The translations under genes were made by a program, and so were the position numbers. The notes beneath the pieces are model-generated. The model was given only the letters and a program-made list of their open reading frames with translations. It made no database searches and was not told the DNA's origin. From Salinivibrio sp. ES.052 (GTDB lineage: Bacteria > Pseudomonadota > Gammaproteobacteria > Enterobacterales > Vibrionaceae), in contig NZ_FSRI01000001.1 in the NCBI RefSeq assembly GCF_900141775.1, positions 1,458,251 to 1,522,250 on the forward strand: a stretch of 64,000 bases of DNA. Reading direction: 5' to 3'. Positions 6,565 to 46,576 of this stretch are shown here, in pieces; the first letter of the stretch is position 1, and each line of letters opens with the position of its first letter.

Positions 6565-7524
6565 TTACGCTTCAGTCTTTTTTAGGTATTCAGTGACCGC
6601 TTCAACGGCGTCTTCACCGTCAACCGTGGTGACACCGTCTAGCCACTTGTTCAACACACTTGGGTTGTTACGTAACCATTCACGTGCAGCCATCTGTGGC
6701 TTCTCACCGTCGTTGAGAATTTTGCCCATCATTTCGTTTTCCATCTTGAGACTAAACTCAAGATTCTCGAGCATTTGGCCCACGTTCGCGCACTGCTCTA
6801 CATAGCCATTACGCACGTTGGTATGCACCGTTGCGCCGCCGTAGTTAGGGCCGAAGTATTCGTCTGCGCCAGACAGGTACTTCATATCAAAATTGCTGTT
6901 CATTGGGTGTGGGGCCCAGCCTAGGAAGGCAACCCATTTATCACGACGTACCGCACGTGACACTTGTGACACCATGCCGGCTTCACTTGACTCGATCAGA
7001 CGGAAATCACCCAGATCAAAATCATCGGTATCAATCATTTTTTGAATTTGACGATTGCCGTCGTTACCTGGCTCGATGCCATAAATGCGTGAGTCAAACT
7101 TATCAGCATATTCCGCGATATCTGCGACACTCGTAACACCCGCATCGTAAACATACTTAGGCACGGCTAGCGTATATTTTGCACCTGTCAGATTGGCGCG
7201 AATGCTGTCGATAGAGCCATCTTCAAGGTACTTTTTAATATCGCCTGTTTGTGTTGGCATCCAGTTACCGAGGAATACGTCGATGTCGCCCGATGCCAGT
7301 GATGAAAAAGTCACAGGCAGTGACAGTAAATCTGTCTCTGTGGTATAGCCCATGCCTTTCAGCACTTCAGTGGTGATAGCCGTCGTTGAGGTGACATCAG
7401 TCCAACCGATATCCGAGAAACGCACGGTTTCACACTGATTGGCTGCGGCGCCAAACGCCATCATTGAGCTTAAGCCAGCCACGGTCATCAGCGTTTTGGT
7501 GGTTTTACGTTTGTTCATTGACAT
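6565..7524 (-). CDS. choX: Periplasmic choline-binding protein ChoX
   Basis: The 319-residue product has a signal peptide (about residues 1-28) and the OpuAC-type glycine betaine/choline-binding fold. The ligand cage of Sinorhizobium ChoX (Trp43, Asp45, Trp90, Tyr119, Asn156, Trp205) is matched with a constant offset of two: W41, D43, W88, Y117, N154, W203. The aromatic box grips the quaternary ammonium; the acidic and Asn residues hold the choline hydroxyl. This points to choline rather than betaine as ligand. AAGGAAAT precedes the ATG. It sits directly after betA in the operon. Confidence 0.9.
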   Translation of the reverse strand: MSMNKRKTTKTLMTVAGLSSMMAFGAAANQCETVRFSDIGWTDVTSTTAITTEVLKGMGYTTETDLLSLPVTFSSLASGDIDVFLGNWMPTQTGDIKKYLEDGSIDSIRANLTGAKYTLAVPKYVYDAGVTSVADIAEYADKFDSRIYGIEPGNDGNRQIQKMIDTDDFDLGDFRLIESSEAGMVSQVSRAVRRDKWVAFLGWAPHPMNSNFDMKYLSGADEYFGPNYGGATVHTNVRNGYVEQCANVGQMLENLEFSLKMENEMMGKILNDGEKPQMAAREWLRNNPSVLNKWLDGVTTVDGEDAVEAVTEYLKKTEA

Positions 7525-21772: not shown

Positions 21773-21936
21773 TCGACTCTCCCCAGACCTATCATTGCGA
21801 CTCCTGATTAAATCATAGCTAAGCGGTAAAGGGGTGTGTCACCCGAGTGTCAACATCACCGTTCATCAAGGGGACAACGTATCGCATGAATACATCATAA
21901 GAGGGGCACACGGCGAAGCATAAGAAAAAAAGAAGA

Positions 21937-22018
21937 TGTTGCCAACACCATAAACCTTCAAAGCTAAAAATTGAGAACAATGGTTTACGATATTTATGAC
22001 ACCATAAGTTTGCAAATT
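21937..22018 (+). repeat. Left end of the Tn7-like remnant with TnsB-site-like repeats
   Basis: It begins TGTTGCCAACACCATAAA. A first ACACCATAA copy lies at 21945-21953 and a second, ACACCATAAGTTTGCAAA, at 21999-22016 (preceded by TG), so the CCATAA cores are 54 bp apart. Widely spaced transposase sites are usual for Tn7 left ends. Confidence 0.7.
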
Positions 22019-22139
22019 CGTTTAGTACTGAAGATGCAATTGTGTAGCCTTTAAATCTTTGTCTCTTATAAGATTTAAGTCAAAAACAACAAGCGCATTA
22101 CATAGTAAACTCAATCACTCAGTATGAAGGGAGAAGATT

Positions 22140-23072
22140 ATGCCAGGCGCTTTTGCTCATATCACTGCAGTTAACGTTGCTTCTGCGAACAACGTTTTGA
22201 TGTCTCTAAAAATGTCCCTAGCAGCAAAAAAGGCTTTAGCTCAAAACAAAAGGTATTTGGAGCTAGGTTGCGTCAGCCCTGATTATCCTTATCTGGTTCT
22301 GATGGATTCAGCCCAAAACAAATGGGCTGACGAAATGCATTACAACAATGTCGGCAAGTTGATAAGTGCTCTCGTTCAGCAAGTGAAATCAGTAAATAGC
22401 GAACATCACGAAAAAGCCTTTGCATGGTTATGTGGCTTCGTCTCACACGTCGCTGCTGATATTACCATTCATCCCGTGGTTGAGATGAAAGTTGGTCCTT
22501 ATGCTAAAAACGCTAAAGCCCACCGTGTTTGTGAAATGAATCAGGATGCCTATATCTGGTCTTCTCGATTGAGGCTGGGCGATATTGGCATGGCTGATCG
22601 TGTAAAAGAAAACATAGGCAGCTGCGTAGATATCAACAACGACAGTGCCATTGATCCAATTATCAACGACATCTGGCACATCGCACTCAATGCTGCCTAC
22701 CCAGACTACGCCAGTGAATGTCAGCCAAACATCAACGCTTGGCATCAGGGTTTCCAAACAGTTGTAGATAACGCCGAGGAATCCCATCGATTGTTTCCTT
22801 GGGCTCGGCATGTTGCTTCACAACAGGGCTTAACCTACCCCCTTCCCGGTGAAGTCGATACAACTTTTATCGAAAGCCTCGAAACGCCCGATGGTGCTAA
22901 ACACTATGACGAGATTTTTGATAAGGCCGTCGACACAGTCCAGTTATTTTGGGAGAAAGCCGCAGCAGCTGTGTTTGAAGACGCCGAAACAGACTTCTTC
23001 AAAAATTGGAATTTAGATACAGGTCGCTGTGAAAACGGCCAGCTGACAGCTTGGGGGAATCAATGCGATTAA
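22140..23072 (+). CDS. Zinc-dependent phospholipase C-like protein, transposon cargo
   Basis: The 310-residue protein shows the metal-ligand layout of the zinc-dependent phospholipase C / S1-P1 nuclease fold: H7 near the N-terminus, D48 in SPDYP, H67 in DEMHY, and the cluster HVAADITIH (H103, D107, H111) with H128 further on. No signal peptide is evident, so it may be cytoplasmic, unlike secreted phospholipases. AAGGGAG precedes the ATG. A lipoprotein gene overlaps its end by 10 bases. The substrate is unknown; it is an intact gene inside a decayed Tn7-like element and probably acquired with it. Confidence 0.7.
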   Translation: MPGAFAHITAVNVASANNVLMSLKMSLAAKKALAQNKRYLELGCVSPDYPYLVLMDSAQNKWADEMHYNNVGKLISALVQQVKSVNSEHHEKAFAWLCGFVSHVAADITIHPVVEMKVGPYAKNAKAHRVCEMNQDAYIWSSRLRLGDIGMADRVKENIGSCVDINNDSAIDPIINDIWHIALNAAYPDYASECQPNINAWHQGFQTVVDNAEESHRLFPWARHVASQQGLTYPLPGEVDTTFIESLETPDGAKHYDEIFDKAVDTVQLFWEKAAAAVFEDAETDFFKNWNLDTGRCENGQLTAWGNQCD

Positions 23073-23491
23073 TCACTGCTCTTGTAATGCTTATGGCTAT
23101 AGCGTCTTGCTCCACGCAAGCTAAATACTCGAATGAAGTGATGTATGACATGGCATCTATTCTTAAAGATGTATCCCAAGCTGTTGACGGTGAGCTTAAG
23201 TGGGGAAATACCGAAGGACTCAGCCAAGAAAAGATTATCTCAAATGCCACCTTGACCAACCCCAGTCAACTACCAGAGCTCGAAGTGCTCGCCAAAGAAG
23301 CGAAAGTGACTAACTATCGATTACTACAGGAGTTTCAAGGGGGCAATGCGGTCATGCTGATATGTGACGGTGACGTGGCACTTATGGAGGACGCTGGCTG
23401 CAACGCCGAATTTGACAAGATCTATTGGAAGTCGCCGAGACCAAATACCTGTAGCATTAACCTTGATGCCGCAGCACTTTGCTCAAACTAA
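23063..23491 (+). CDS. Small predicted lipoprotein of unknown function, transposon cargo
   Basis: The 142-residue product begins MRLITALVMLMAIASC, a short lipoprotein signal with lipobox IASC (Cys16), so it should be lipid-anchored in the envelope. The mature part is mostly polar, with four further cysteines in its second half (ICDGD, AGCNAE, NTCSIN, ALCSN) that could form disulfides. ATG 23063 has GGGGGAA upstream and lies within the end of the phospholipase-like gene, suggesting coupled translation. I do not recognise the family. It ends within 10 bases of the dead tnsA stop on the opposite strand. Confidence 0.65.
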   Translation: MRLITALVMLMAIASCSTQAKYSNEVMYDMASILKDVSQAVDGELKWGNTEGLSQEKIISNATLTNPSQLPELEVLAKEAKVTNYRLLQEFQGGNAVMLICDGDVALMEDAGCNAEFDKIYWKSPRPNTCSINLDAAALCSN

Positions 23492-24092
23492 AGCCTTATT
23501 GAGGGTAAGCCTGTCCTTGCCCTTCAATTCTGCCTGCAATTGCCCACGAGACATTAACGCCAGCGCTTTGGCTTTTCGCACCCCGATAGACACATGAATC
23601 CGTTGTGGTAGAAGGCTAACCCACTTGATGTCACCACTTTGAGCAACTGTACTTGCATAACATTTATGCCAACAATACCTGTATAACAGTGCAACAGCTT
23701 TAGATTGTATAGGACTGAATTAACTCTGATTTGGTTATCGGTTACCAGTTAAAGAGGACATCCCAAAGACTTCGCTACAGCCATCTTGCCGACAAACTTC
23801 CGACGATACTCATCCCCGTCAATTTAACTGGCAGGCTTTATCTCCAGAAATGCCTCACTCCCACCTTTATAGCTAACCCAAAAATCTGGCGTTTAAGGCA
23901 ACTTTTTGCCTTCAAATTGATAGTAAAAACCTTCTGGCTGAGCCTCGAAACACACAATTTCTTTGCAATATTCGAGTGAAAGCAGGTATCGAACTCTAAT
24001 GAGGATTCAACGGTAAGAATGGTACTGTTCTTTAAGCTTCAGAACTTAAAGTGATTTTTGACGCGGGAGTGCTTTAGATTGCGACGATACAT
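23483..24092 (-). pseudogene. tnsA: tnsA pseudogene (Tn7-like transposase endonuclease subunit)
   Basis: Read on the minus strand from ATG 24092, the frame gives MYRRNLKHSRVKNHFKF, a stop, then STILTVESSLEFDTCFH, a frameshift near 23977, then LEYCKEIVCFEAQPEGF, YYQFEGKKLP, stop, TPDFWVSYKGGSEAF, LEIKPAS, stop, and EYRRKFVGKMAVAKSLG. This is the TnsA N-terminal nuclease pattern with its catalytic Glu (SSLE), Asp (TPDF) and EIK lysine. Stops are TGA 24039-24041 and TAA at 23893-23895, 23824-23826 and 23749-23751. After a second frameshift (about 23640-23680) the tail KALALMSRGQLQAEL resembles the TnsA C-terminal domain. It is near full length but non-functional. Confidence 0.85.
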
Positions 24093-24134
24093 GGGCGTTT
24101 ACCACATGTTGTTTTATTACAAATAAATGTAGTT

Positions 24135-24179
24135 GTGCAAGTTTATGATGCTAATTGCAAACTTATGGTGTCAGAAAGA
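24135..24179 (-). repeat. Right end of the Tn7-like remnant with two TnsB-site-like repeats
   Basis: Read inward on the minus strand from 24179 it starts TCTTTCTGACACCATAAG. Copy one, ACACCATAAGTTTGCAAT, is at 24171-24154; copy two, CATCATAAACTTGCAC, is at 24150-24135. The CATAA cores are exactly 20 bp apart. Closely packed sites are typical of the Tn7 right end, the end next to the attachment gene. Confidence 0.7.
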
Positions 24180-24191
24180 GAAAGTCACAAA

Positions 24192-24305
24192 GGGCGGAGA
24201 CCTCCCCAGCTACATCCCGGCACACACGTCCCAAGCGCGAGCTGCTTCCTTCCGGACCTGACCCAGTACACAAGATAGTGTTGCGGGAGAACCAAGGAGG
24301 CCTCC
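24192..24305 (-). ncRNA. ffs: 4.5S RNA of the signal recognition particle
   Basis: On the minus strand this 114-base gene carries the universally conserved SRP core GGTCCGGAAGGAAGC with its GGAA tetraloop, and the opposite bulge segment GTGCCGGGATGTAGC. The 5' end GGAGGCCTCC pairs fully with the 3' GGAGGTCTCC (one G-U pair). The length equals that of E. coli 4.5S RNA. It binds Ffh and targets nascent membrane proteins to FtsY. A good promoter lies upstream. The 3' end abuts the Tn7-like right end. Confidence 0.96.
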
Positions 24306-46277: not shown

Positions 46278-46362
46278 GGTGGAGTTCCCGAGCGGTCAAA
46301 GGGATCAGACTGTAAATCTGACGGCTCAGCCTTCGAAGGTTCGAATCCTTCCTCCACCACCA
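46278..46362 (+). tRNA. tRNA-Tyr (GTA), copy 1
   Basis: An 85-base class II tRNA with acceptor GGTGGAG/CTCCACC, anticodon GTA at 46312-46314, a long variable arm and encoded CCA. It differs from copies 2 and 3 by one base in the D arm (AGCGG instead of AGTGG) and one in the T loop (TTCGA instead of TTCAA). Confidence 0.97.
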
Positions 46363-46384
46363 ACTTTACAAAGCAAGACTCCGT

Positions 46385-46469
46385 GGTGGAGTTCCCGAGT
46401 GGTCAAAGGGATCAGACTGTAAATCTGACGGCTCAGCCTTCGAAGGTTCAAATCCTTCCTCCACCACCA
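46385..46469 (+). tRNA. tRNA-Tyr (GTA), copy 2
   Basis: Same 85-base structure as copy 1, with anticodon GTA and encoded CCA. It is identical to copy 3. The 22-base spacer before it is repeated exactly before copy 3, so the array arose by tandem duplication of a 107-base unit. Confidence 0.97.
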
Positions 46470-46491
46470 ACTTTACAAAGCAAGACTCCGT

Positions 46492-46576
46492 GGTGGAGTT
46501 CCCGAGTGGTCAAAGGGATCAGACTGTAAATCTGACGGCTCAGCCTTCGAAGGTTCAAATCCTTCCTCCACCACCA
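46492..46576 (+). tRNA. tRNA-Tyr (GTA), copy 3
   Basis: Identical to copy 2, with anticodon GTA and encoded CCA. A rho-independent terminator starts six bases after it and closes the transcription unit. Confidence 0.97.

Follow-up and report, generated by a model that had tools for sequence, protein, structure and literature searches.

What kind of element lies between vxrA and ffs, the 4.5S RNA gene, in Salinivibrio sp. ES.052, and what is left of it? We addressed this question in a window of 64,000 nucleotides, the whole stretch of DNA that was analysed, in which a sequence-only reading had proposed a degenerate Tn7-like transposon at positions 21937-24179. Comparison with complete transposons makes it nearly certain that this 2.24-kb element is what remains of a type I-F3 CRISPR-associated Tn7-like transposon (CAST), one of those that attach at ffs. 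Its reading as a gutted CAST, whose movement genes and guide are gone and whose two passenger genes are intact, is secure. From left to right it contains a gene of the phospholipase C family, a lipoprotein gene and, on the opposite strand, a tnsA pseudogene, with ffs lying beyond its right end. The two intact cargo genes (22140-23491) and the recombination history described below were absent from the earlier reading.

Intact CASTs are present at ffs in Enterovibrio coralii CAIM 912 (17,940 bp), Enterovibrio sp. ZSDZ42 (18,072 bp) and Grimontia indica AK16 (15,888 bp). These parents, of 15.9-18.1 kb as against 2.24 kb for the relic, carry tnsABC-tniQ-cas8/5-cas7-cas6, an array and an atypical ffs guide. 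The intact Enterovibrio/Grimontia elements (L073-L076) resemble the relic in their ends, their spacing from the ffs protospacer, their 5-bp duplication, the orientation of tnsA and their phospholipase/lipoprotein cargo; unlike it, they keep tnsB, tnsC, tniQ, cas8/5, cas7, cas6, the array, the guide and an internal second 4.5S gene.

The left end of the relic (21937-22007, + strand) begins at 21937 with TGTTGCCAACACCATAA and the right end (24143-24179, - strand), read on the reverse strand, begins at 24179 with TCTTTCTGACACCATAAG. Exact ACACCATAA boxes, which resemble TnsB sites, occur at 21945 (+), 21999 (+) and 24171 (-), with a degenerate box at 24151, and the inverted arms 21993-22015 and 24155-24177 (23 nt) show 96% complementarity. 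These termini correspond to those of the intact relatives, TGTTGCC[AG]ACACCATAA and TGTTTCTGACACCATAAG. The left end, with its TGT terminus, is intact and is 71-89% identical over 79-133 bp to the left ends of the E. coralii, G. indica and Enterovibrio sp. CASTs, while at the right terminus TGT has become TCT. The right terminus is mutated in all three Salinivibrio relics, those of the window, S. siamensis and S. proteolyticus, and the right-end boxes are lost in the latter two. In the window the flanks read GAAGA on the left (21932-21936) and GAAAG on the right (24180-24184), an imperfect, decayed duplication which counts against the explanation preferred below; in S. siamensis the same GAAGA stands on both sides of a 2213-bp copy, a perfect 5-bp duplication. 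The parents are likewise flanked on both sides by GAAAC (E. coralii), CGAAA (Enterovibrio sp. ZSDZ42) and AGAAC (G. indica).

The ffs gene itself occupies 24201-24297 on the - strand (Rfam RF00169, 64.1 bits). The CRISPR array of each parent finishes with an atypical repeat and a spacer matching ffs. The guides read from four intact CASTs agree with the window at 22-24 of the 32 bases of 24228-24259 (- strand), with mismatches at positions 6, 12, 18, 24 and 30, that is at every sixth base, among others. Nowhere in the window does any of these guides find a better match than here. The target lies 48 bp from the element end, compared with 48-49 bp in the parents, and the PAM is TC, as reported for 96.6% of ffs users (PMC12774636); ffs is one of the four usual I-F3 attachment genes (PMC11406308). 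Guide target, PAM and distance thus agree with the insertions of the parents and with published I-F3 behaviour at ffs, which supports a CAST ancestry. One base within the guide target sets the window ffs apart from its counterparts in S. siamensis and S. proteolyticus: read on the ffs strand, it has CTCGCG where they have CCCGCG.

The tnsA pseudogene (23523-24092, - strand), detected by tblastn, is nearly full length, frameshifted and interrupted by stops, its last codons having gone with a deletion. It is 79% identical to the TnsA of a Photobacterium I-F3 CAST over residues 1-39 and 45% over residues 40-157, and 82% identical to Grimontia TnsA over residues 38-161 with three in-frame stops; at the DNA level it matches the tnsA genes of I-F3 CASTs on Photobacterium and Aeromonas plasmids. 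When 330 genomes of the family were searched with Grimontia TnsA, the Enterovibrio/Grimontia elements matched at 82-100% and all matches other than these and the relic were at about 50% or less over the full length. A tblastn search of the window with seven CAST proteins returned TnsA only, with no match for TnsB, TnsC or TniQ; Cas8/5, Cas7, Cas6 and a guide-bearing array are absent as well. By its inverted TnsB-box ends, its 5-bp duplication (perfect in S. siamensis), its ffs spacing and PAM and the TnsA by its right end, the element belongs to the ffs group of I-F3 CASTs as a matter of ancestry; it is not a functional CAST, which would need TnsB, TnsC and TniQ together with Cas8/5, Cas7, Cas6 and a guide array. 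In the source genome the only Cas7f-like match, 25% identical, belongs to a separate, canonical-looking type I-F CRISPR operon with an array outside the window (G000:C6:880109-881050, L130). A Cas7f-like match is found in all three relic carriers (broken in S. proteolyticus) and in one of five non-carriers, numbers too small to mean much. The window also holds three tandem tRNA genes with similar scores at 46278-46573.

The features on which the sequence-only reading had built its case are all recovered here: inverted ends with TnsB-site-like boxes, correct to the exact base and matching the termini of intact relatives; a dead tnsA reading inward from the right end; a position just past the 3' end of ffs, where intact I-F3 CASTs also sit; the lack of tnsB, tnsC and tnsD/tniQ, borne out by tblastn and by comparison with intact CASTs; and kinship with CRISPR-associated transposons.

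How the element lost its machinery can be read at a single joint. On either side of this joint the window aligns with E. coralii and G. indica at 84-88% identity, and the BLAST blocks from the two sides overlap by exactly seven bases, at 23523-23529. This 7-bp repeat, TTCAATT, is present at both breakpoints in E. coralii, and the relic lacks about 11.5 kb that E. coralii has in between, comprising the 3' end of tnsA, tnsB, tnsC, tniQ, cas8/5, cas7, cas6, the array, the ffs guide and the second 4.5S gene. Around the joint the parental order (tnsA ... cas6, array, lipoprotein, phospholipase, left end) is preserved. The parents hold an additional 2.5-4.1 kb between the left end and the phospholipase gene, which is not in the window. 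The same joint is found in the window, in S. siamensis and in S. proteolyticus, and the tnsA stop codon at 23749-23751 is common to all three.

Of the eight members of the genus searched, three carry the segment, S. siamensis and S. proteolyticus among them; the ffs-side flank is common to all eight. In the five element-free congeners only a short interval, without the segment, lies between vxrA and ffs, and these empty sites show that it is an insertion and rule out an ancestral intergenic sequence. The uninterrupted vxrA-ffs interval that the earlier reading had proposed to look for thus exists in congeners, and its concern that the repeats might belong to a non-Tn7 family is answered by ends of a Tn7-like family. 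No TnsB was found in the eight congeners, the G. indica positive control having worked, and a search for DNA of the short form elsewhere found none.

We propose that the ffs of an ancestral Salinivibrio was the target of an I-F3 CAST from the Enterovibrio/Grimontia ffs family, which integrated 48 bp downstream of the sequence recognised by its guide and duplicated GAAGA. A deletion between two TTCAATT repeats would then have removed about 11.5 kb, with the transposase core, Cascade, the array and the guide, leaving behind the two ends, most of tnsA and the pair of phospholipase-C-like and lipoprotein genes. The tnsA gene and the ends have decayed, with loss of self-movement and probably of movement in trans too, the cargo pair being meanwhile retained by selection, and the relic would later have spread or been exchanged among Salinivibrio species by homologous recombination through its flanks. 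We hold this account as a whole, from insertion and deletion to decay, cargo retention and recombination, with very high confidence. Within it, the ancestry, the site, the joint, the gene loss, the decay and the intactness of the cargo are shown by the sequences; we infer that the insertion preceded the deletion, an order that the sequence itself does not record.

The reverse order would describe a miniature, non-autonomous CAST derivative that was itself mobile: the 2.2-kb form would have arisen by deletion before a full CAST, with its ffs guide, moved it in trans. The presence of both ends, the perfect duplication around the S. siamensis copy and the past contact between the relic and a Grimontia-type element seen in the S. 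proteolyticus mosaic (see below) are all compatible with such a history, which we nevertheless consider improbable. The window and S. siamensis share the left flank and the duplication, so that one insertion suffices; short-form DNA was found only at ffs, in three of the eight congeners; and the right terminus is mutated in all three copies, with the right-end boxes lost in two. An element mobile in trans would be expected to show two functional-looking ends and several copies with different duplications, whereas here the right terminus is mutated and a single site is occupied. The sequence-only reading had left the choice between an internally deleted relic and a short element moved in trans. 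A single insertion and a single deletion joint account for every carrier, the right end is mutated in its outermost bases, and no copy of the short form was found elsewhere; the internally deleted relic is therefore favoured and movement in trans is not needed.

The patchy presence in three of eight genomes, and a phospholipase gene whose dS in S. proteolyticus is lower against Grimontia (0.16) than against the window (0.47), might instead suggest that separate CASTs arrived and decayed independently in each Salinivibrio species. The identical joint and the shared tnsA stop in all three copies make this very unlikely; the shared joint leads us to reject independent decay, and the odd phospholipase gene is explained by one crossover near 23087. 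Even less credible is descent from a Tn7-like transposon outside the CASTs, such as one carrying a DNA-binding TnsD. The window retains no CRISPR component, as such an origin would have it, but the TnsA relic is 82% identical to the TnsA of intact I-F3 CASTs, the cargo is 88-90% identical and adjoins cas6 in those elements, and the guide geometry is exact; we reject this origin on the identity of TnsA and cargo with intact I-F3 CASTs.

The cargo is the part of the element that has remained intact. Gene 1 (22140-23072, + strand) encodes a 310-residue protein of the zinc-dependent phospholipase C family (Pfam PF00882, E 2.1e-25), 88-90% identical to the cargo protein encoded beside cas6 in three intact CASTs. 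Gene 2 (23063-23491, + strand), whose start overlaps the end of gene 1, encodes a small lipoprotein of 142 residues, 85-87% identical to the product of the partner gene in intact CASTs; its lipobox was read from the sequence, and it has no Pfam, NCBIfam or PADLOC match. Across the 1352 bp of the cargo block there are zero indels in any pair of the three relic copies; the tnsA alignment of the window with S. siamensis, over 505 bp, contains 10 indel events. The dN/dS of the phospholipase gene ranges from 0.09 to 0.23 among the three copies (window-S. siamensis 0.23, window-S. proteolyticus 0.11), and that of the lipoprotein gene is 0.11 and 0.16 for the same two pairs. To judge from these substitution patterns, the pair is under purifying selection in all three relics. 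Scans for promoters and terminators gave fewer hits than shuffled sequence.

Most of 40 loci, from Vibrionaceae, Shewanella, Pseudoalteromonas, Neptuniibacter and other groups, have the two genes together; these loci include chromosomal ones and CASTs. In several Vibrio they sit amid what look like ordinary chromosomal genes and are thus not CAST-specific, and in Photobacterium sp. GJ3 they have no CAST genes nearby. In Shewanella (L039, L040) the pair lies about 3 kb from the cas6 of a distant I-F3-like locus. The pair may be a recurrent CAST cargo. A defence function was considered and set aside, with no match in PADLOC or NCBIfam and none to solved structures at E 0.01. A lipid-cleaving enzyme with a membrane-anchored partner is a natural guess, the usefulness and enzymatic activity of the cargo being presumed.

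Recombination appears to have shaped the distribution of the relic. The vxrA gene of S. siamensis is nearly the same as that of an element-free congener (G003; dS 0.03), whereas its vxrA-ffs spacer, from the vxrA promoter region to the element, and the element itself match the window and not G003; gain by recombination is the simplest account of this combination. The claim rests on the spacer swap and not on divergence alone, since between the window and S. siamensis the cargo, with a dS of 0.19, is only modestly less diverged than the flanking thioesterase gene (dS 0.31); divergence of the flanks is a weak proof of transfer, as two flanking genes disagree. The S. proteolyticus copy, which has lost its left end, has a sharp breakpoint near 23087, at the phospholipase/lipoprotein boundary (L017, matching window 22040-23087). 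To the left of it the sequence is 90-99% identical to Grimontia/Enterovibrio elements and to the right, within the cargo block, 96-99% identical to S. siamensis. The copy is a mosaic with a Grimontia-type element, so such an element met the relic at least once. Recombination seems to have carried the relic from one Salinivibrio species to another, in a direction that we infer. Tentatively, and at somewhat less than even odds in our view, the cargo could have been domesticated: having outlived its CAST and being kept by selection, it would now pass from one Salinivibrio species to another through ordinary homologous recombination spanning the ffs site, and would exchange segments with intact CASTs that deliver this cargo to the same location.

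Published I-F3b CASTs at ffs, such as that of Aeromonas salmonicida (compare L019; PMC12774636, PMC11406308), share the target gene, the TC PAM and the TnsA family with the relic. The A. salmonicida element differs in being complete; identity between its TnsA and the TnsA of the parents is only 52-54%, and no phospholipase cargo was seen in L019. The Tn7-like elements with a mini type I-F system at the SRP-RNA locus of Vibrio cholerae and V. parahaemolyticus (PMC6360697) are likewise downstream of the SRP RNA gene with the right end by tnsA; they differ in size (20-35 kb), end sequences and cargo. CAST relics are not rare in Vibrionaceae, our tnsA survey having returned many fragments elsewhere in the family, several of them with stops. 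A literature search found no published description of the Salinivibrio relic, which we rate as an unusually well-documented new case of an already known phenomenon. It offers a clear, sequence-readable example of the death of a CAST, in which one short-repeat deletion strips the machinery, the ends still mark the exact RNA-guided insertion and the cargo stays under selection. Moreover, the exchange between the relic and a Grimontia-type element at a shared attachment site suggests a route for the remodelling of CAST cargo.

A further outcome of the comparison is a second 4.5S/SRP RNA gene, carried inside elements that insert beside the 4.5S RNA gene. It lies between the array and the cargo of the parent CASTs, at L073:11889-11985 (+), L074:6380-6476 (-) and L075:8964-9060 (-), with Rfam RF00169 scores of 59-64 bits against a cut-off of 40; a fourth copy, near 7285 (-) in L107, was seen by core motif and alignment only. 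A literature search found no report of an internal 4.5S gene in CASTs, and other sampled ffs CASTs have the host 4.5S copy only, in the stretch read. The internal gene keeps the SRP core and is strongly divergent from the host ffs, and by eye its outer stem still pairs. The element's own guide matches it at 17-20 of 32 bases, compared with 24 of 32 for the hosts' ffs. Such an internal copy might serve as a spare for the gene beside which the transposon inserts.
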